Source: Plantactinospora sp. KBS50 (GTDB lineage: Bacteria > Actinomycetota > Actinomycetes > Mycobacteriales > Micromonosporaceae). Taken from it: a stretch of 64,000 nt of DNA. A program made the position numbers and the translations under genes. The DNA lies in the NCBI RefSeq assembly GCF_002285795.1, contig NZ_CP022961.1, positions 4,592,001 to 4,656,000 on the forward strand, read 5' to 3'. Of the stretch, positions 48,820 through 62,244 are shown in pieces. The notes under the pieces are model-generated. The model worked only from the letters and a program-made list of their open reading frames with translations. It was not told where the DNA came from and did no database searches. Within the stretch, counting starts at the first letter, position 1, and each line of letters starts with the position of its first letter.

Positions 48820-49878
48820 TCAGGGCCGGGCGTAGCCGCGATCCCGGCGCTGCCGGCGCCACCCGGCGCGCCGCGCCGCCAACCGGGCGTCCCGGCGGTC
48901 GGTCTCCACCGCCACCTCCCGGTTCAGCCGCTGCCAGCTCTCCCACCGCCGGGGCGGCAGCTCGCCGGACTCCAGCGCGGCCCGGACCGCGCAGCCCGGT
49001 TCCGCCTCGTGCCGGCAGTCCCCGAACCGGCAGGCCGCGACCAGCTCCGCGATCTCGGCGAACGCCCTGGCCAGCCCGTCGCCCGCGGCCTGCAGCCCGA
49101 CGGCCCGGATGCCCGGGGTGTCCAGCACGGCGCCGCCGCCCGGCACCGGGATCAACGCCCGGTACGTGGTGGTGTGCCGCCCCTTGCCGTCGACCCGGCG
49201 GATCGTCTGGGTGGCCATCGCGGTGCCCCCGACCAGGCCGTTGACCACCGAGGACTTCCCGGCCCCGGAGGGCCCGAGCAGGCCGAGCGTCCGGCCGGCG
49301 GCCACGAACGGGCGCAGCGCGTCCAGCCCGCCGGGCCGCTGCGCGCTGACCGGCAGCACCGCCACCCGCGGCGCCACCTCGGCGATCTGGGCGGCCACCG
49401 CCGCCGGATCCGCCGCCAGGTCACACTTGGTCAGCACCACCAGGGGCTGCGCGCCGGACTCCCAGGCCAACGCGAGCAGCCGCTCGATCCGGCCCACGTC
49501 CGGCTCCGGATGGACCGGCTCCACCACGGCCGCCGTGTCCACGTTCGCCGCGAGCACCTGGCCGGTGGAATCCTTGCCGGCCGTCCGCCGGATCACCGCG
49601 GTCGAGCGCGGCAGCAGCTTCTCCGCGGTCACCCGGCCGTCCGGCCAGTCGCGGACCAGCACCCAGTCGCCGGCGCACGGGAGTTCGGCCGGATCGGCGG
49701 CCGCGGCCGCGAGCACCGCGCCGGCCAGGCTGGCCCGGACCGGGCCATCGGCGCAGAGCGTGGTCAGTACGCCGCGGTCGGCCCGGACGACCCGGCCCGG
49801 TCGCAACCGTGCCCCGCATCGCGCGGCACGCTCAGCCAGCGCCGGGCTCCAGCCCAGCGCATAGAGATCGACGGTCAT
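48820..49878 (-). CDS. rsgA: Ribosome small-subunit-dependent GTPase A
   Basis: Circularly permuted GTPase assisting late 30S ribosome maturation. The 352 residues show an N-terminal OB-like domain, the permuted G motifs (G4-like VLTKCDLAAD, then G1 GPSGAGKSSVVNGLVG, G3 DTPG) and the C-terminal zinc motif CRFGDCRHEAEPGC. ATG 49878 has AAGGG upstream. A TACCGT -10 and a 12-bp palindrome lie about 90 bases upstream, implying a leader of roughly 95 bases. Confidence 0.94.
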   Translation of the reverse strand: MTVDLYALGWSPALAERAARCGARLRPGRVVRADRGVLTTLCADGPVRASLAGAVLAAAAADPAELPCAGDWVLVRDWPDGRVTAEKLLPRSTAVIRRTAGKDSTGQVLAANVDTAAVVEPVHPEPDVGRIERLLALAWESGAQPLVVLTKCDLAADPAAVAAQIAEVAPRVAVLPVSAQRPGGLDALRPFVAAGRTLGLLGPSGAGKSSVVNGLVGGTAMATQTIRRVDGKGRHTTTYRALIPVPGGGAVLDTPGIRAVGLQAAGDGLARAFAEIAELVAACRFGDCRHEAEPGCAVRAALESGELPPRRWESWQRLNREVAVETDRRDARLAARRAGWRRQRRDRGYARP

Positions 49879-49965
49879 GTCAGCCCTTCGTCGACGGTGG
49901 GGAGACGGGGAGATGCCGCGCGTGCACGGTGGCCGGCATGTCCCACCTCCCTTCCACGGATCCGG

Positions 49966-49977
49966 GTGACGCGTCAC
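49966..49977. promoter_or_regulatory. 12-bp palindrome at the rsgA start site
   Basis: GTGACGCGTCAC is perfectly palindromic and sits where transcription from the rsgA -10 (TACCGT, minus strand 49987-49982) should begin. It is a candidate operator; the regulator is unknown. Confidence 0.4.
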
Positions 49978-50061
49978 GTTGACGGTAGGCGCCGGGTCGC
50001 GCCGATCGAAAGCGATTTCCGGTACGGCGGCGGTAACGATCACCGCCTAGGGTGTTCAGGC

Positions 50062-50778
50062 GTGACCGTTGATCCGCTGCTGCTGATGCCCGAGGTCGAC
50101 CGGGCCACCGAACGACTCCTGCGCACCGCCGACCGGCTGGACGACGCCGCGGCGCGCGGTCCGTCGCTGCTGCCCGGCTGGACCCGCGGACACGTGCTGA
50201 CGCACCTCGCCCGCCAGGCCGACGCGCAGGTCAACCTGCTCACCTCGGCGCGTACCGGCGAGGTCATCCCGGCGTACCGGGACGAACAGGCCCGGGCGAC
50301 GGACATCGCGGCGGGCGCGGACCGCTCTCCCGCGGACCTGGCCGCCGACCTGCGGGCCGCGGCCGCGCGGCTGGTGGACGCCTGCGCGGCGATGCCGCCG
50401 CAGGCGTGGTCCGCGCAGGTCATCGGGCGGCGCGGCCCCCAACCGGCCGCCACCGTGCTGTGGGGCCGGCTGCGGGAGGTGGAGGTGCACCACGTCGACC
50501 TCGCCGCCGGGTACGCGCCGATCGACTGGCCGGCGGCGTTCGCGCACCGGCTGCTGCACGAGGTGACCGCCGACCTGGACGGGCGGCCCGGCCGGCCGGC
50601 GCTGGTGCTGCGGCCGTGCGAGCGGCGGCACGAGCTGACCGTCGGCGAGCCGGAGGGCGCGCCCACCGTGTCGGGACCCGCGTACGCCATCGCCGCGTGG
50701 CTGACCGGTCGCGGCGACGGCGATGGGCTTACGGTGAGCCCGGACGGACCCCTGCCGACCCCACCCGAATGGATCTAG
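50062..50778 (+). CDS. Maleylpyruvate isomerase family / DinB-type mycothiol-dependent protein
   Basis: 238-residue protein of the DinB/MDMPI superfamily. Metal-ligand motifs are GWTRGHVLTHLARQ near residue 45 and LREVEVHHVDLAAGY near residue 145. The C-terminal domain matches the MDMPI C-terminal module. In relatives these enzymes use mycothiol for isomerisation or transferase reactions; the substrate here is unknown. GTG 50062 has TAGGGT eight bases upstream, a leaderless arrangement. A metallo-beta-lactamase-fold gene follows after 8 bases, a pairing that suggests thiol-adduct metabolism. Confidence 0.85.
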   Translation: MTVDPLLLMPEVDRATERLLRTADRLDDAAARGPSLLPGWTRGHVLTHLARQADAQVNLLTSARTGEVIPAYRDEQARATDIAAGADRSPADLAADLRAAAARLVDACAAMPPQAWSAQVIGRRGPQPAATVLWGRLREVEVHHVDLAAGYAPIDWPAAFAHRLLHEVTADLDGRPGRPALVLRPCERRHELTVGEPEGAPTVSGPAYAIAAWLTGRGDGDGLTVSPDGPLPTPPEWI

Positions 50779-50786
50779 AGATACCG

Positions 50787-51440
50787 ATGACCTACACCGG
50801 AGACGTCACCACCGGCGGCCCGACCGACGTACGCGAGCTGCCCGACCTCACCATCACCAAGGTGTCGGTGGGTCCGATGGACAACAACGCCTACCTGCTG
50901 CGCTGCCGGTCCACCGGCGAGCAGTTGCTGATCGACGCGGCCAACGAGGCGCCGCGGCTGCTGGAACTGGCCGGCACCGGCGGCCTGGCCACCGTGGTCA
51001 CCACGCACCGGCACATGGACCACTGGGTCGCACTGGAGGAGACGGTCGCCGACACCGGTGCCCGCTCGGTGGCCCACGTCGACGACGCCGAGGGGCTGCC
51101 CATCCCGTCCGACACGGTGACCGACGGCGAGACGGTACGCGTCGGCGACTGCGCCCTGGAGGTGATCCACCTCGTCGGGCACACCCCGGGTTCGATCGCG
51201 CTGCTGTACCGGGACCCCACCGGCGAACCGCACCTTTTCACGGGGGACTCCCTCTTTCCGGGCGGGGTGGGAAACACCCACCAGGACGCCGCCGCGTTCG
51301 CCAGCCTGATCGACGACGTCGAACACAAGCTGTTCGACCGGCTGCCCGACGGCACCTGGGTCTACCCGGGCCACGGCCGGGACACCACGCTCGGTGCCGA
51401 GCGTCCCGCCCTGCCCGACTGGCGAGCCCGCGGCTGGTGA
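50787..51440 (+). CDS. Metallo-beta-lactamase-fold hydrolase (glyoxalase II-like)
   Basis: 217-residue MBL-fold protein with the zinc-binding motif THRHMDHW near residue 73. Further ligands are LVGHTPGSI, FTGDSLFPGG and the C-terminal YPGHGRDT. Size and motif spacing fit the glyoxalase II/persulfide-hydrolase-like group of thioester hydrolases. It is co-transcribed with the upstream MDMPI-type gene. In a mycothiol organism the natural substrate could be an S-acyl mycothiol, but this is inference. Confidence 0.88.
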   Translation: MTYTGDVTTGGPTDVRELPDLTITKVSVGPMDNNAYLLRCRSTGEQLLIDAANEAPRLLELAGTGGLATVVTTHRHMDHWVALEETVADTGARSVAHVDDAEGLPIPSDTVTDGETVRVGDCALEVIHLVGHTPGSIALLYRDPTGEPHLFTGDSLFPGGVGNTHQDAAAFASLIDDVEHKLFDRLPDGTWVYPGHGRDTTLGAERPALPDWRARGW

Positions 51441-53507: not shown

Positions 53508-53559
53508 GGGTTCAGCCGGTGGGTTCAGCCGGTGGGTTCACCGGCGGGTTCAGTCGGCG
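53508..53559. repeat. 13-bp tandem repeats after the SDR terminator
   Basis: About four copies of GGGTTCAGCCGGT (the third and fourth diverged), running into the stop codon of the holin-like gene. Confidence 0.7.
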
Positions 53560-53852
53560 GCGAGCGGGTCGGTGGCCGGGCGGTCGGCGGCCGGTTCGGC
53601 GGCGGTCCCGTCCTCGCCGGACCGGGGGCGGACGATCGACGCGGCCCGCGGGGAGTGCCGCGCCAGCCAACCCCCGATGAACGTGCAGAGTCCGGTCACC
53701 ACCAGGCCGATCACCCCGACCAGCGGCAGCGGGACCTCACCGCCGGCGAAGAAGAGCTGCCCGACCAGCCAGATCACGAACGGGGTCAGCACACCGGCCG
53801 AGCCCGCGCCGGCCGCGGTGGCGGCCTTCACCTTCGTTTCGATGGGACGCAT
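53550..53852 (-). CDS. Holin-like small membrane protein, 100 aa
   Basis: Two predicted membrane helices (about residues 22-37, FVIWLVGQLFF region, and 43-62, LVGVIGLVVTGLCTFIGG) follow a short cationic N-terminus and precede a charged, disordered C-terminal tail. This two-helix layout, its size and its place seven bases after an endolysin-like gene fit a phage holin, although holins cannot be named by sequence alone. It may instead be a domesticated export or lysis helper. It is on the minus strand downstream of the endolysin-like gene. Confidence 0.65.
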   Translation of the reverse strand: MRPIETKVKAATAAGAGSAGVLTPFVIWLVGQLFFAGGEVPLPLVGVIGLVVTGLCTFIGGWLARHSPRAASIVRPRSGEDGTAAEPAADRPATDPLAAD

Positions 53853-53859
53853 GGCGGGC

Positions 53860-54837
53860 CTACCGGGGCGGCGGGACGGCGCCGGCCGGCGCGGCGGTCG
53901 AGGACTCCGCGGTTCTGGCGGTCGCGCTCGGCGCGGCGGCGAGCCGGGCGGCCAGCTCGTCGACCACCTGCTGGGCGACGGTGGGCGGGATGGCCGCGGC
54001 GATCTCCTCGGGCGACAGGCCGGCCAGTACGCCCTCGACGATGGCCTGGGCCGTGGGGTCCCGGCCGACCAGGTCGTTCACCTTGGCCACCAGGTCCGGG
54101 TACGACTTGGCCATCGCCGCCAGGAGCTGTGCCGGCGAGCCGTCGGCCGGCGGCCCGACCGTCTCGCCGCCGATCGGTGTCCAGAACCAGTTGCGCAGGT
54201 TCTGCAGATCGGCAAAGACGTGCCCCACCGTACGGCCGCTCCAGCCGGTGTCGTGCAGGAGCTTGTCGGACTGTTGCATCTCAGCCTCCGGAGGTGTCGG
54301 CGGCGCGATCAGACCGATGTCGGTCAGGTATCGCGTATAAAGTGGACGAAGATCCCGGTTGGCCTTTGTGGCGTCCCGGAAGTAGCTGAAGTGGGTGTGC
54401 CACAGGTGCGACGAGTCGCCCGTGGTGCGTTTGCCGAGCCGGTCCCAGCGGCGCACGGTCTTGCCGTCCGGCGAATAGATGATCTCCCTGAGATCGGCGG
54501 TGTCCGCCGTGTTCGCCCGGCACTGGGTGACGCACCAGGTGGAGAAGGTCCGCAGGTTGTGCAGACCGCTGGCGGTTCTGATCTCGAACCACCCGACGTC
54601 CAGTGCCGATGCGTAGATCGTGAGTCCGGACCGGTCGCGTGGGGACTCCACCACGGAGTAGTCGTTGGTGACCACCCGGTCTGATCCACAGTGGTAGCCA
54701 CCCTTGTGGGACGGATCGCCGACAATGCCGACCTCGGCCGGATCAAGGTCGGAATCCACCGTTGTCCCGGGATGCACATCGAGATACTCAAGCAACAAAC
54801 TACGTACGGTCATCAAATTGGCTGGTGCCTGCGTCAT
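53860..54837 (-). CDS. Endolysin-like zinc peptidase (M15-type, actinophage lysin-like)
   Basis: 325 residues. The N-terminal 165 carry a zinc peptidase pattern: DPSHKGGYHCG (His49), YASALD (Asp80) and SSHLWHTHFSYF (His147/149), the H...D...HxH order of M15 D-Ala-D-Ala-type peptidases. Phage- or phage-derived lysins of actinomycetes have the same blocks. The C-terminal part (LLHDTGWSGRTVGHVFADLQNLRNWFW, then helical) resembles a wall-binding or coiled region. ATG 54837 has GGGGAGG five bases upstream. Codon and base composition, particularly upstream, is more A/T-rich than neighbours, consistent with phage origin. No capsid, integrase or terminase genes are present. Confidence 0.75.
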   Translation of the reverse strand: MTQAPANLMTVRSLLLEYLDVHPGTTVDSDLDPAEVGIVGDPSHKGGYHCGSDRVVTNDYSVVESPRDRSGLTIYASALDVGWFEIRTASGLHNLRTFSTWCVTQCRANTADTADLREIIYSPDGKTVRRWDRLGKRTTGDSSHLWHTHFSYFRDATKANRDLRPLYTRYLTDIGLIAPPTPPEAEMQQSDKLLHDTGWSGRTVGHVFADLQNLRNWFWTPIGGETVGPPADGSPAQLLAAMAKSYPDLVAKVNDLVGRDPTAQAIVEGVLAGLSPEEIAAAIPPTVAQQVVDELAARLAAAPSATARTAESSTAAPAGAVPPPR

Positions 54838-55033
54838 GTCGCCTCCCCGCAGCCGAGCAAAGATCAGGCTGTTCGAGCGCCTTTTGCCTGGTCAAAACCT
54901 ACTACCAGCAAGTGTGGAAAGTTACTCATCTCAATTGATTGCGAGGGCCGCGAGCCGCGCCGTAACCCAGAGTGAATCTTTACTGAGCGCGACCATGCCG
55001 TTACTCAGATGCGCTTTGGGCGAAAAGTAATGA

Positions 55034-55050
55034 CTTCGTATGGCGCGAAG
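55034..55050 (-). terminator. Weak terminator after the CocE-type gene
   Basis: On the minus strand a CTTCG...CGAAG stem with a 7-base loop is followed by TCATTACTTTT. It is weak but correctly placed 20 bases after the CocE-type stop codon. Confidence 0.4.
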
Positions 55051-55070
55051 CCGCGGCCGGGCGGGCCGGT

Positions 55071-56747
55071 TCAGCCCGCGACGACCGGGAGGACAACCAT
55101 CGACGGGCGATCGGGATCGTGCCAGATCTCGCGCCACCCGGCCCGCAGCCGCACGGCGCTGCCCAACGGCTCGCCCGTACCCGGATTGCGCGCGTACCGC
55201 GGATGGGCGCCGCCGCTGACCTGCACCCGCACCCGGTGCCCCGGGCGGAAGCGGTGCGCCACCGGCCACAGGGTCACCGGCACCCGCAGCACGCCCGCGT
55301 CGTCGGGCGGAAACCGGCCCGGCTCCACCCGGACCAGACCGTCACACAGGTTCCACGACCGGCCCCGCGGATCCACATCGCACAGCCGCAGGAACAGGTC
55401 GAAGTGCGCGAGCGCGCTGCGCACGTACACCTGCGCGGTCACCGGACCGATCACCTCCAGCGGGGCGTCGAGCCGGGTGCCGGTGTAGACCAGCACGTCG
55501 GCGCGGGCCTCGACCGGCCGGTTGTCCACCGGGCCGGCGCGCTGCGCCACCAGCAGCGGGCCGCCCAGCGACGGGGTCGGGTCGGCCGGGTCGTACCGGA
55601 AGGTGTCCGGCGCGGACGGCACCGGCGGTGCCGGGCGCAGCCCCCGGTCCGGATGCAGGTGCCACGCCGTGCCGGTGGCCGGTGGCGGCCAGTCCGGCAG
55701 GTCCCGCCAACCGGCCCCGCCGCCCAGGTGGACCCGCACCGGCGGCCGGCGGGACGCCGGTGCCGCCGTACCGCGCGGCGGCGCCGGGGCACCCGGTGGC
55801 CCCGCGTCGGCCAGTTGACCCCGCAGCCAGGGCACGCCCTCGCGCAACGCGGCCGCGAGCAGTCCCGGGCTGCCGTGCGTCCACGGGCCGACGGTCAGCG
55901 TCGGGTGACCGCCGGCCGCACGCAGCGCGGCGTAGTCGGCCAACTGGGCCGGCAGGAAGATGTCGTGCCAGCCGGTCACCATCGCCACCGGCGTGCGGAT
56001 CTCGGCCATCCGCGCGTCGAACATCCGGGACCGCCAGTACGACGCCCCGGGCGTGTGCTCGACCAGCCACTCCTGGAAGAACGGCACGGTGCCGCCGGTG
56101 GCGACCCGGTCCGCCTCGGCCAGCGGCAGGTGGGCCAGCCCGGCCAGCAGCCGGGGCTGCCCGCGGCGCAGTTCGAGCTGGCGGGCCAGCCAGGGCACGG
56201 CCTGCGCCTCCAGCAGCTCGGCCCAGGTCAGCACCGTGTCCAGCGAGAACGATCCGCCCGCGTACGTGGAATCCCGGACGCTGGCCGCGGTCACCACCGC
56301 CACCATGGCCCGCAGGTCCTCGACCTCGGCGGCCAGCGCCCACTGCACGAAGCCCTGGTAGCTGGCCCCGAACATGCCGAACCGGCCGGCGTACCAGGGC
56401 TGCCGGCGCAGCCAGTCCACGGTGTCCAGGCCGTCGGCCCGCTCGTGCACCAGGGGCGTGAACCGGCCGGCCGAACCGAACGTCCCCCGGCAGGACTGGA
56501 TCACGGTGTGGAAGCCCTGCTCGGCCAGCAGCCGGCCGAGCAGCCGGACCGGGCCACCCCGCCCGTACGGGGTGCGGATCAGCAGCGTCGGGGCGCCGGC
56601 CCGGTCGGGGGCGTAGTGGTCGGTGAGCAGCGGCACCCCGTCGCGGACCCGGACCCGGATGTTGCGGGTGACCACCACCCGACGGGTACCCGTCGGCGGC
56701 AGCCCGAGCAGCCGGCCGGCGAGCCGCGCGGCGAGCCGGCCGATCAC
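55071..56747 (-). CDS. CocE/NonD-family alpha/beta hydrolase (X-Pro dipeptidyl-peptidase type)
   Basis: 558-residue cytoplasmic serine hydrolase of the peptidase S15/cocaine-esterase family. The N-terminal alpha/beta domain has GASYQGFVQWA (nucleophile Ser), VTGWHDIFLP (Asp) and VGPWTHGSPG (His). The C-terminal jelly-roll domain characteristic of the family ends in IWHDPDRPSMVVLPV. Family members cleave esters, amides or acyl groups; the substrate here is unknown. The GTG start is at 56747. The C-terminus of the upstream transglycosylase gene lies 46 bases away. Confidence 0.9.
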   Translation of the reverse strand: MIGRLAARLAGRLLGLPPTGTRRVVVTRNIRVRVRDGVPLLTDHYAPDRAGAPTLLIRTPYGRGGPVRLLGRLLAEQGFHTVIQSCRGTFGSAGRFTPLVHERADGLDTVDWLRRQPWYAGRFGMFGASYQGFVQWALAAEVEDLRAMVAVVTAASVRDSTYAGGSFSLDTVLTWAELLEAQAVPWLARQLELRRGQPRLLAGLAHLPLAEADRVATGGTVPFFQEWLVEHTPGASYWRSRMFDARMAEIRTPVAMVTGWHDIFLPAQLADYAALRAAGGHPTLTVGPWTHGSPGLLAAALREGVPWLRGQLADAGPPGAPAPPRGTAAPASRRPPVRVHLGGGAGWRDLPDWPPPATGTAWHLHPDRGLRPAPPVPSAPDTFRYDPADPTPSLGGPLLVAQRAGPVDNRPVEARADVLVYTGTRLDAPLEVIGPVTAQVYVRSALAHFDLFLRLCDVDPRGRSWNLCDGLVRVEPGRFPPDDAGVLRVPVTLWPVAHRFRPGHRVRVQVSGGAHPRYARNPGTGEPLGSAVRLRAGWREIWHDPDRPSMVVLPVVAG

Positions 56748-56793: not shown

Positions 56794-57642
56794 TCAGACG
56801 CTCAGGCAGGTGCATTCGGTCATCAGCGCCCGCACGTTCTGCACGTACCGGGGGTTGGGGATGACCAGCCCGCTGTCCGTGGCCACCGCGCCGGGCCCGA
56901 AGTTGTACGCGGCGATCACCGCGTTGAGCAGGCAGGAGTTCAGCTCGGCGGTGCAGTTGGCCGCGTCCAGGCTGTAGTCGCTGTCGAAGTAGGCGTCGCC
57001 GATGTACTTGGTCAGCCAGGCGAGGTAGTTGGCGCCCAGGGTGGCGTTGTCCCGGTAGTCCTCGATGTCGTAGGACTGCTCGAACCGCTGGTTGACGAAG
57101 TCGGCCGTCGGCTCCATCACCTGCATCAGTCCCACCCCGCCGTCGCAGGCGATGATGTTGGACTGCCACCCGCTCTCCTGCCAGGCCACCGCCTTGACCA
57201 GGTTCACCGGCACCCTCAGGCTCGGCGCCGACGAGGGCCAGTACGTCCGGCCCGCCGCGGCCGTCAACGCGTCCCGGACCTGGCTCTGGGTCGCCTTGGT
57301 CCCCCGGTACGACGGCGTGCAGTCCGCGGCCGGCGCGGGTGGCGGCGGCGGCAGGGTCTTCTCGGTCGGCGGCTTCGGCTTGGCCCGTGGCGTCGGCGCC
57401 CGGTGCGCGCTCGGGCTCGACCCGGCCGCCGCGGACCGGCTCGGCGACGGGCTGGCCGCCGGTGTGCTCGGTGCCGGCCCGAGCAGCGCCTCCGCGCTCA
57501 CCTCGGCGGTGGCCTCCGCCACCACCTCCGGCCCGGTCGGCCGTTGCACGGGCGGCGCGCCCCCGCAGCCGGACGACACGAACCCCACCGCCACGATCAG
57601 CACCGTGGCCCGGACACCGACCCGCCCCGTTCCGTGTCTCAC
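56794..57642 (-). CDS. Lytic transglycosylase (SLT domain) lipoprotein
   Basis: 282-residue exported peptidoglycan transglycosylase. The N-terminal signal ends in a lipobox-like SSGC, followed by a long Pro/Ser/Ala-rich linker (about residues 40-115). A C-terminal SLT domain has catalytic Glu in VAWQESGWQSN, then GLMQVMEP, NATLGANYLAWLT and AAYNFGPGAVAT. It should cleave the glycan strand, releasing anhydromuropeptides. GTG 57642 is chosen because TACGGT lies eight bases upstream. In-frame sequence further upstream lacks a signal-like start. Confidence 0.9.
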   Translation of the reverse strand: MRHGTGRVGVRATVLIVAVGFVSSGCGGAPPVQRPTGPEVVAEATAEVSAEALLGPAPSTPAASPSPSRSAAAGSSPSAHRAPTPRAKPKPPTEKTLPPPPPAPAADCTPSYRGTKATQSQVRDALTAAAGRTYWPSSAPSLRVPVNLVKAVAWQESGWQSNIIACDGGVGLMQVMEPTADFVNQRFEQSYDIEDYRDNATLGANYLAWLTKYIGDAYFDSDYSLDAANCTAELNSCLLNAVIAAYNFGPGAVATDSGLVIPNPRYVQNVRALMTECTCLSV

Positions 57643-57723
57643 GAGCGCCGACCGTAGCAGTCGGAGGTGTCCGGCGACGTCCCGTGAGTACGCCGTCACC
57701 GGCGCCGGATGCCGGAACGGGTC

Positions 57724-61290: not shown

Positions 61291-62244
61291 ATGACCTGGG
61301 CGGATCTCGACGAGCAGCTGGCGGCCGTGCCCGGCACGATCTCGGTGTACGCCGCACGGCTGGACCACCCGCCCGCCTACGCCCGGCTGCCGGACACCCC
61401 GCACTACGCGGCCAGCACCATGAAGGTGGCGGTGCTGGCCGCGCTGTTCCGGGCCGCCGAGGCCGGCCGGCTCGACCTGGACACGCCGGTGCCGGTCGGC
61501 AACGAGTTCGCCTCGGCGCTGCCCGGGGCGCCCCGCTTCTCCTGCCAGCGCGGCTACGACAACGACGAGGCGGTGTGGGAGCGGGTCGGCGCCGACGCGC
61601 CGCTGCGCTGGCTCGCCGAGCGCATGATCGTCCGGTCCAGCAACCTGGCCACCAACATCGTCCTCACGCACGTCGGCCAGCCGGCTGTGGCCCAGGTGTG
61701 GTCCCTGGCCGGCGCCCGCAACAGCGTCACCGGCCGCGGGATCGAGGACTTCGCGGCCCGGGAGGCCGGGATCACCAACCTGGTCACCGCCGCCGACCTG
61801 GCGGCCCTGCTCGGGGCGGTGGCGCGCGGCGCCGAAGCCGCAGCCGCAGCCGCAGCCGAGGAGGACGACCGCGGCACGCGGCCGGATCGACCGGTGGACC
61901 GGCCGGACCCCGCCAGCGGCCCGTCCGATCCGCCCGACCTACCCGACCTACCCGACCTGCCCGGCCCGCTGGCCGGCCGGGCGAGTTGCGCCGCCATGCT
62001 GGAGATGCTGTTCCGCCAGGAGCACCGCGAGGACCTGGCCGCCGGGCTGCCGCCGCACGTCCGCGTCGCGCACAAGAACGGCTGGGTGCAGGGCGTACGG
62101 CACGGCGCCGGGGTGGTTTTTCCCGACGACGCGCCCCCGTACGCCGTGGTGGCCTGCACCAGCACCGACCTGGCCGACGAGGCGTGCCGGCTGATCGCCC
62201 GGATCTCCGCGGCGGTCTGGGCCGCCCGGCACCACCTGGCCTGA
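61291..62244 (+). CDS. Serine hydrolase of the class A beta-lactamase fold
   Basis: 317 residues with the serine-acylase triad of motifs: YAASTMKVAVL (S-x-x-K), RSSNLATN (S-x-N type) and AHKNGWVQG (K-x-G). No signal peptide is visible, unusual for a true beta-lactamase, so a cytoplasmic or unusually exported peptidase/esterase role is more likely. A Pro/Asp insertion with a PDLPDLPDL repeat lies before the last motif. ATG 61291 has TACGGT six bases upstream (leaderless). Its neighbours are a dipeptide epimerase and an SH3-domain protein, pointing to murein-peptide processing. Confidence 0.85.
   Translation: MTWADLDEQLAAVPGTISVYAARLDHPPAYARLPDTPHYAASTMKVAVLAALFRAAEAGRLDLDTPVPVGNEFASALPGAPRFSCQRGYDNDEAVWERVGADAPLRWLAERMIVRSSNLATNIVLTHVGQPAVAQVWSLAGARNSVTGRGIEDFAAREAGITNLVTAADLAALLGAVARGAEAAAAAAAEEDDRGTRPDRPVDRPDPASGPSDPPDLPDLPDLPGPLAGRASCAAMLEMLFRQEHREDLAAGLPPHVRVAHKNGWVQGVRHGAGVVFPDDAPPYAVVACTSTDLADEACRLIARISAAVWAARHHLA

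Follow-up and report, generated by a model that had tools for sequence, protein, structure and literature searches.

The window, meaning the whole 64,000-nt stretch of Plantactinospora sp. KBS50 DNA that was analysed, contains a lysin gene and a holin-like gene that are co-oriented on the minus strand, with the lysin first and a gap of 7 nt between them. The adjacent pair that the first-pass annotation had placed at 53550-54837 was thereby confirmed. The features considered are:

53860-54837, minus strand: lysin ORF, 325 aa, a phage-type endolysin, cytosolic
54691-54693, minus strand: lysin H49, invariant
54598-54600, minus strand: lysin D80, invariant
54397-54399, minus strand: lysin H147, invariant
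54391-54393, minus strand: lysin H149, invariant
53860-54285, minus strand: C-terminal helical region of the lysin (residues ~185-325), fast-evolving, helices in the AlphaFold model
53550-53852, minus strand: holin-like ORF, 100 aa, beginning 7 nt past the lysin stop
54838-55070, minus strand: A/T-richer intergenic stretch, presumed promoter and 5' leader
55071-56747, minus strand: CocE/NonD-type hydrolase (Peptidase_S15 and PepX_C), upstream neighbour (context only)
48820-51440: rsgA, MDMPI-type isomerase and metallo-hydrolase, bounding the other side of the slot (context only)

The A/T-richer region described ahead of the pair was also recovered. GC content was 58.4% across the 233-nt gap between the lysin and the next (upstream) gene, and 62.5% in the lysin catalytic part compared with 76.8% and 75.9% in two neighbour genes, with the 1-kb GC profile standing at 0.637 for 54-55 kb of the window. 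Based on Pfam names, the neighbours are housekeeping genes (rsgA, MDMPI-type isomerase, metallo-hydrolase, epimerase, CocE-type hydrolase, SLT transglycosylase, VTT-domain protein and typA), and a UvrA-like gene was recognised among them by eye. Four of the 10 neighbouring proteins scanned matched PHROG families (a hydrolase, the SLT transglycosylase with an 'endolysin' family, the VTT-domain protein and TypA), while none of the 10 matched a head, tail or packaging family. In the whole window genome, the two families searched, PF04860 (portal) and PF04984 (sheath), gave no match at E ≤ 0.001. The earlier statement that no other phage genes are visible therefore held, and the genome yielded no tail-sheath or PF04860 portal gene hinting at cargo. 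No tRNA was found in the window. Close to the pair lie genes for an SLT transglycosylase and a Beta-lactamase2-family protein (56794-57699 and 61291-62244), so the neighbourhood has further possible wall-related genes.

One explanation is a prophage scar or insertion hot spot, in which the slot gathers lysis genes of decaying prophages and has no role for the host. It would account for both window genes being of phage type and for the lysin being A/T-richer than its neighbours, but it sits poorly with the lack of phage structural genes around the pair.

Predicted properties of the lysin and the holin-like protein

The lysin had no significant match among Pfam, PHROG or NCBIfam models. The lysin of Micromonospora phage pMLP1 had no PHROG match at E ≤ 0.01 either, and the model libraries therefore seem not to contain this family. 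Weak model rows for window proteins (cytochrome oxidase IV, DSHCT, SCO2097 family and others) were chance-like and were dropped. Across 79 homologue rows, the invariant residues include H49, D80 and both histidines of an H147-x-H149 motif. Histidine and aspartate are the zinc ligands of LAS-type peptidases. The HxH motif of this group is given in PMC11667670. In the AlphaFold model, block pLDDT was 91-98 across residues 1-180. The MT3 domain of VldE topped the list obtained via structural comparison (Z 7.2 and 7.1; next rows 5.2), although the best alignment (9flh: Z 7.2, rmsd 3.0, 98 aligned residues, 12% identity) falls below the guide value of Z 8. Foldseek returned no PDB match at E ≤ 0.001 (rows were mostly HSP90-type), and the only match in the viral structure library was an uncharacterised Caudovirales protein. 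A profile run against solved structures listed a single ribosomal protein (E 0.95), which was dropped. Given the Z score below 8 and the lack of a Foldseek PDB match, the LAS-type assignment stands on the motif plus the rank. Residues 1-180 are probably a LAS-type zinc peptidase with predicted stem-peptide cleavage; the earlier call of a zinc peptidase thus gained invariant His/Asp residues and a predicted fold, but not a family-model match. VldE (Spr1875) MT3 is described as a LAS-family L,D-endopeptidase with an HxH motif (9flh; PMC11667670). The window lysin shares that motif, whereas VldE also binds the wall through an N-terminal module and is targeted to the septum (PMC11667670).

Hydropathy indicated no hydrophobic signal or transmembrane segment in the lysin. 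By eye, a stretch of its C-terminus ('GVLAGL..E.IAAAIP...A..V.DEL..RL') reappears on other lysins and, more loosely, on amidase-type ones.

The holin-like protein has two hydrophobic regions and a charged C-terminal tail in its 100 aa (Kyte-Doolittle hydropathy), and is thus small with transmembrane helices, as a holin would be. Hydropathy and phage relatives upheld its description as a two-helix membrane protein, and neither it nor the tested phage relatives had a significant Pfam, PHROG or NCBIfam match. It is 67% identical to the product of the gene at the same locus in another genome of the family (G035), and second codon positions of the two genes were 0.90 identical compared with 0.58 for third positions (72 codons), as expected of constrained coding sequence. 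At E ≤ 0.01 the protein was matched in 26 of the 354 family genomes, the window genome included; the credible matches besides the window were in G035 (67%), G327 (52%, one stop) and G245 (38%). With the single sequence there was no match in phage records, and a pattern search of IMG/VR gave 31 stretches, none of them confirmed. A three-row alignment recovered 16 holin-like relatives from IMG/VR, 12 of which start directly after an endolysin-like ORF as judged by reading translations. We consider the product of 53550-53852 best called holin-like, with holin activity a prediction from its sequence.

With tblastn, the holin-like protein had no relative next to the lysin in 57 syntenic loci from named genomes (E ≤ 1e-6), in 80 kept IMG/VR lysin loci (E ≤ 1e-6), or in the ~1.5 kb flanks of 46 other, non-window lysin loci (best E 0.16). 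Given this absence from the 57 syntenic loci, the pair as a unit was seen in just two places, the window genome and, with another type of lysin, the genus of G035.

A chromosomal slot in Micromonosporaceae

The lysin was matched at E ≤ 0.001 in 211 of 354 family genomes. In all 20 relatives hand-picked from the listed lysin matches, typA is on one side of it and the metallo-hydrolase/rsgA/uvrA block on the other, with the CocE gene adjoining in 19, and synteny places the CocE/NonD-type hydrolase upstream of the slot in several genera. A scan of named genomes gave 101 stretches and 87 relatives, of which 80 were kept; 57 of the 80 loci were syntenic, with CocE inside the stretch in 45. Every syntenic genome carries a Micromonospora title apart from Verrucosispora sioxanthis and Micromonosporaceae bacterium KJ-029, and we infer that genus group g3 is Micromonospora. 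Conservation in relatives, which had been proposed as a check, therefore held for the locus (57 of the 80) but not for the pair: the locus is conserved and the pair is not.

Over 52 syntenic loci, lysin distances correlated with those of CocE (0.66), the metallo-hydrolase (0.66) and rsgA (0.56), and the correlations among the neighbours themselves were 0.69, 0.72 and 0.60; 0 of 999 permutations reached any observed value. Median dN/dS was 0.27 for the catalytic domain (2953 pairs with dS 0.05-0.8, from 80 syntenic ORFs of 262-311 aa) and 0.87 for the C-terminal part in syntenic relatives, values calculated by the Nei-Gojobori method that composition and saturation may bias. These values support purifying selection on the catalytic domain.

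Among 22 lysin-poor g3 genomes picked for inspection, 17 have a slot that is intact apart from the missing lysin, and the stretch covered gave no verdict for the other five; the lysin is therefore dispensable. Copies of the lysin with a leader (described below) were also seen at a second chromosomal home (L142:6001-7246, L157:6001-6924, L159:6001-7349, L195:5932-7139 and L137:1330-2574), where by eye they adjoin SRPBCC-, GNAT- and DUF2231-like genes. There, the gene after the lysin encodes a protein with a weak likeness to spanins in L142 (phrog_214, E 0.001) and a member of a holin family in L159 (phrog_9752, E 1e-5).

The clean absence of the lysin from many genomes, and holin- or spanin-like neighbours at the second place, are what a hot spot for decaying prophages would produce. 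Such a history would not, however, be expected to leave lysin distances that track those of the neighbour genes, or purifying selection. The local prophage scar offered as an alternative by the first-pass annotation is therefore disfavoured by the conserved place, the tracking distances and the constrained catalytic domain, and we regard a scar or hot spot as unlikely. Because relatives keep the lysin at the same spot with no virus around it, the arrangement looks like viral lysis machinery that was made the host's own, and domestication of the lysin locus is likely.

Chromosomal lysins of Micromonospora further share their upstream sequence, a block of ~130 nt common to the syntenic copies. 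A covariance model of this leader (R1), built from 35 syntenic Micromonospora sequences, gave 130 matches at E ≤ 0.01. They fall in 127 of the 354 family genomes, exclusively within g3, and up to 35 of them are the training sequences themselves. When compared with the 149 lysin rows of the lysin match list, 121 of the 130 matches end at the lysin start codon, six lie 29-72 nt ahead of a listed lysin match (that in G327 itself begins at residue 29), and three are without a listed lysin (G206, G263 and G237). The G206 lysin scored under the listed part of the lysin matches, and the G263 case is a marginal second R1 match. In G237 the lysin is gone and the leader persists in the slot (L320:5357-5475, minus strand), which looks like a deletion scar. 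Of the 149 lysin rows, 22 lack an R1 match, at least two of them syntenic (G002 and G329). Examples of the leader are found at L065:10196-10324 (minus strand), L052:10118-10249 (minus strand) and L128:5874-6003. In a targeted R1 search, all eight matches at E ≤ 1 sit at a lysin start or, for G237, in the emptied slot. In one R1 genome search the strong matches came from six training genomes, which are therefore no independent test.

In the predicted leader helices, 97.6% of cells pair, and double-sided changes numbered 11 versus 3.1 in shuffles (0/500) and 0-2 when slid; as the structure was derived from the same sequences as those tested, and single sequences fold variously, this is support for an RNA, short of proof. 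Rfam gave only chance-level rows in the window upstream stretch and in five other loci, and the Micromonospora leader could be a new regulatory RNA. The leader is tied to chromosomal copies (127 of 130 matches beside a listed lysin), which also tells against a prophage scar. Among the 39 IMG/VR loci searched, out of 80 kept, R1 matched only L203, a second-locus-type copy, and it gave no match in pMLP1. This IMG/VR contig (L203, 137-1161 and 6001-7245) has the second-locus-type lysin and leader with pMLP1-like ORFs a few kb off (by eye), and may represent either the edge of a provirus or a phage into which the host module was taken up.

R1 had no match in the window genome, and on the minus strand inside 54838-55070 it reached at most 1.0 bit, so that this stretch is not recognisably homologous to the Micromonospora leader. 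The best R1 row of the window search (8.6 bits at 55086-55187) falls inside the CocE gene. GTNAC-like (MtrA-type) sites seen by eye upstream of the lysin did not exceed what chance would give and were discarded. As the window lacks the leader and Micromonospora lacks a recognisable adjacent holin, these features belong to the locus and not all of them to the pair.

Different enzymes occupy the slot in other genera. In G035, an Amidase_2 protein matching a PHROG endolysin family precedes the holin-like gene, and a stretch resembling the leader runs right up to the amidase ATG (26.4 bits, E 0.0035 over 1.1 Mb); it came from targeted searches only and is absent from the genome-wide R1 listings, one of which lists two other weak places in G035. 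The slots of G019 and G031 contain amidases related to that of G035 (68% and 75%); neither slot yielded a holin relative or a leader, and R1 gave nothing convincing upstream. A different Amidase_2 protein follows CocE in G033, and on one IMG/VR contig a relative of the G035 amidase (62%) accompanies tail-like ORFs. An SH3-glucosaminidase that is apparently secreted comes after CocE in G036, G005 and G017, where the far flank is displaced; in G027 and G029 its place is between the typA and metallo-hydrolase genes. The same or corresponding slot of other genera has this enzyme at L336:11308-12390 (minus strand), L345:4071-5162 (minus strand), L352:11106-12167 and L099:3336-4403. Glucosaminidase in the slot suggests that one wall enzyme was replaced by an unrelated one.

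The secreted glucosaminidase, the SLT transglycosylase two genes upstream of the lysin and the Micromonospora copies without a recognisable adjacent holin would all suit a housekeeping wall enzyme, that is, a peptidoglycan hydrolase for growth, sporulation or spore release and no lysis device, with the holin as export route where present. This explanation overlaps with our preferred one on domestication. We nevertheless judge it somewhat unlikely, as the lysin has no hydrophobic signal or transmembrane segment, a holin-like gene is retained beside a lysin in two genera, and many species tolerate its loss.

Possible exchange of lysins with phages

Homologues of the lysin occur in phages beside tail and lysis genes, as for an endolysin. 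The single match of the window lysin in phage records was to Micromonospora phage pMLP1 (CP058906.1), at 52.7% identity over residues 1-293, and this element is also present in a chromosome contig of Micromonospora sp. ATCC 39149. The two lysins share the catalytic core and the C-terminal motif. Unlike that of the window, the pMLP1 lysin comes after tape-measure- and tail-like ORFs and ahead of small ones (by reading translations), and is without an R1 leader. A scan of IMG/VR gave 143 lysin relatives, and the chromosomal flank genes were found in none of the 80 loci kept.

Phage and chromosomal catalytic domains were intermixed in the lysin tree, partly because rows labelled as phage included second chromosomal locus copies (L137, L142, L157, L159 and L195). 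A single clade of chromosomal lysins found no support, as the starred branches require at least 12 label changes, and no starred set contained the window lysin. The intermixing may reflect repeated re-entry from phages, and would also be expected from a slot that collects decaying prophage genes.

In 13 same-genome pairs, assembled by hand from same-strain loci and excluding the second-locus copies L159 and L195, the chromosomal lysin of the same host came out as the closest of 57 to the non-syntenic lysin in seven (one tied). The mean relative rank was 0.105, beneath all 20000 random assignments. Four of the 13 pairs have a phage-gene match (L178, L183, L185 and L186), three more have phage-like genes by reading (L166, L173 and L174), and the other six are presumed prophage. 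The prophage or presumed-prophage lysins that ranked their own host's copy first were L145, L174, L178, L185, L186, L193 and L201. The pattern fits capture from the host, replacement by the prophage and co-divergence alike, and does not separate them. It is also what would be seen if the resident lysin hindered incoming phages or served as their recombination partner. Yet host-restricted phages co-diverging with their hosts would yield the same ranks, and six of the 13 paired lysins are only presumed prophage; we hold such a conflict role to be very unlikely.

A putative wall-hydrolase slot and its parallels

We regard it as fairly probable that the locus is a domesticated, exchangeable slot for a lysis or wall-hydrolase function, with the window pair as its local form and the function itself putative. 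The domesticated cassette of the first-pass annotation thus stands for the lysin locus, given its fixed place, vertical signal, purifying selection and, in Micromonospora, leader, but not for the pair as a unit. The slot, between the CocE-like hydrolase and the rsgA-uvrA block, would be an old, host-owned place for a wall-cutting enzyme in Micromonosporaceae; that enzyme is of phage type in Micromonospora and the window, and parts would be swapped with phages. Following classical holin-endolysin logic, once some trigger switched on the operon, the holin-like protein would open the membrane, the lysin would reach the wall and cut stem peptides, and the cell or hyphal compartment would lyse or release its contents, presumably in a regulated manner and to the host's benefit. 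Lacking a recognisable adjacent holin, the Micromonospora lysin would have to rely on a holin that is remote or escaped recognition, do its work once the cell has died, or be exported by another route. More tentatively, and with somewhat less than even confidence, we suggest a Micromonosporaceae lysis locus of phage ancestry that in Micromonospora has its own promoter and structured leader RNA. Its address would be kept throughout and the leader in two genera, enzyme and holin would be exchanged, and phages would repeatedly take lysin catalytic domains from the host copy.

If this is correct, a lysis-gene slot that has been retained by a large set of soil bacteria known for making antibiotics, with the leader as a possible switch, would make regulated self-lysis directly testable in actinomycetes. 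It would also suggest that phages and hosts take wall-cutting domains from a common stock, to which the host chromosome contributes permanently. Among the matches listed in the open-access literature, we found nothing on the slot locus, its leader or a Micromonospora chromosomal endolysin, and the part of PMC13277306 available, on actinobacterial contractile-system effectors, makes no mention of endolysin or holin.

The closest working parallel is the type 10 secretion system. As outlined in three papers (PMC9527704, PMC10847048 and PMC10101115), these systems are chromosomal holin-endolysin cassettes, e.g., in Yersinia entomophaga, and such cassettes are release devices in Yersinia and Salmonella, with a holin in Clostridioides difficile. 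By sequence, the window pair is likewise a phage-derived holin-like gene and a peptidoglycan hydrolase gene on a chromosome outside a prophage, and content release is linked to type 10 systems in the same papers. The window pair differs in belonging to an actinomycete family in which the enzyme type varies by genus and the holin is often missing. Mycobacteriophage F1 lysis cassettes, as described in PMC13056207, contain two holin-like proteins (LysF1a/b). By that description they resemble the window pair in placing a small two-transmembrane protein alongside an endolysin, whereas LysF1a/b act within phage infection (PMC13056207).
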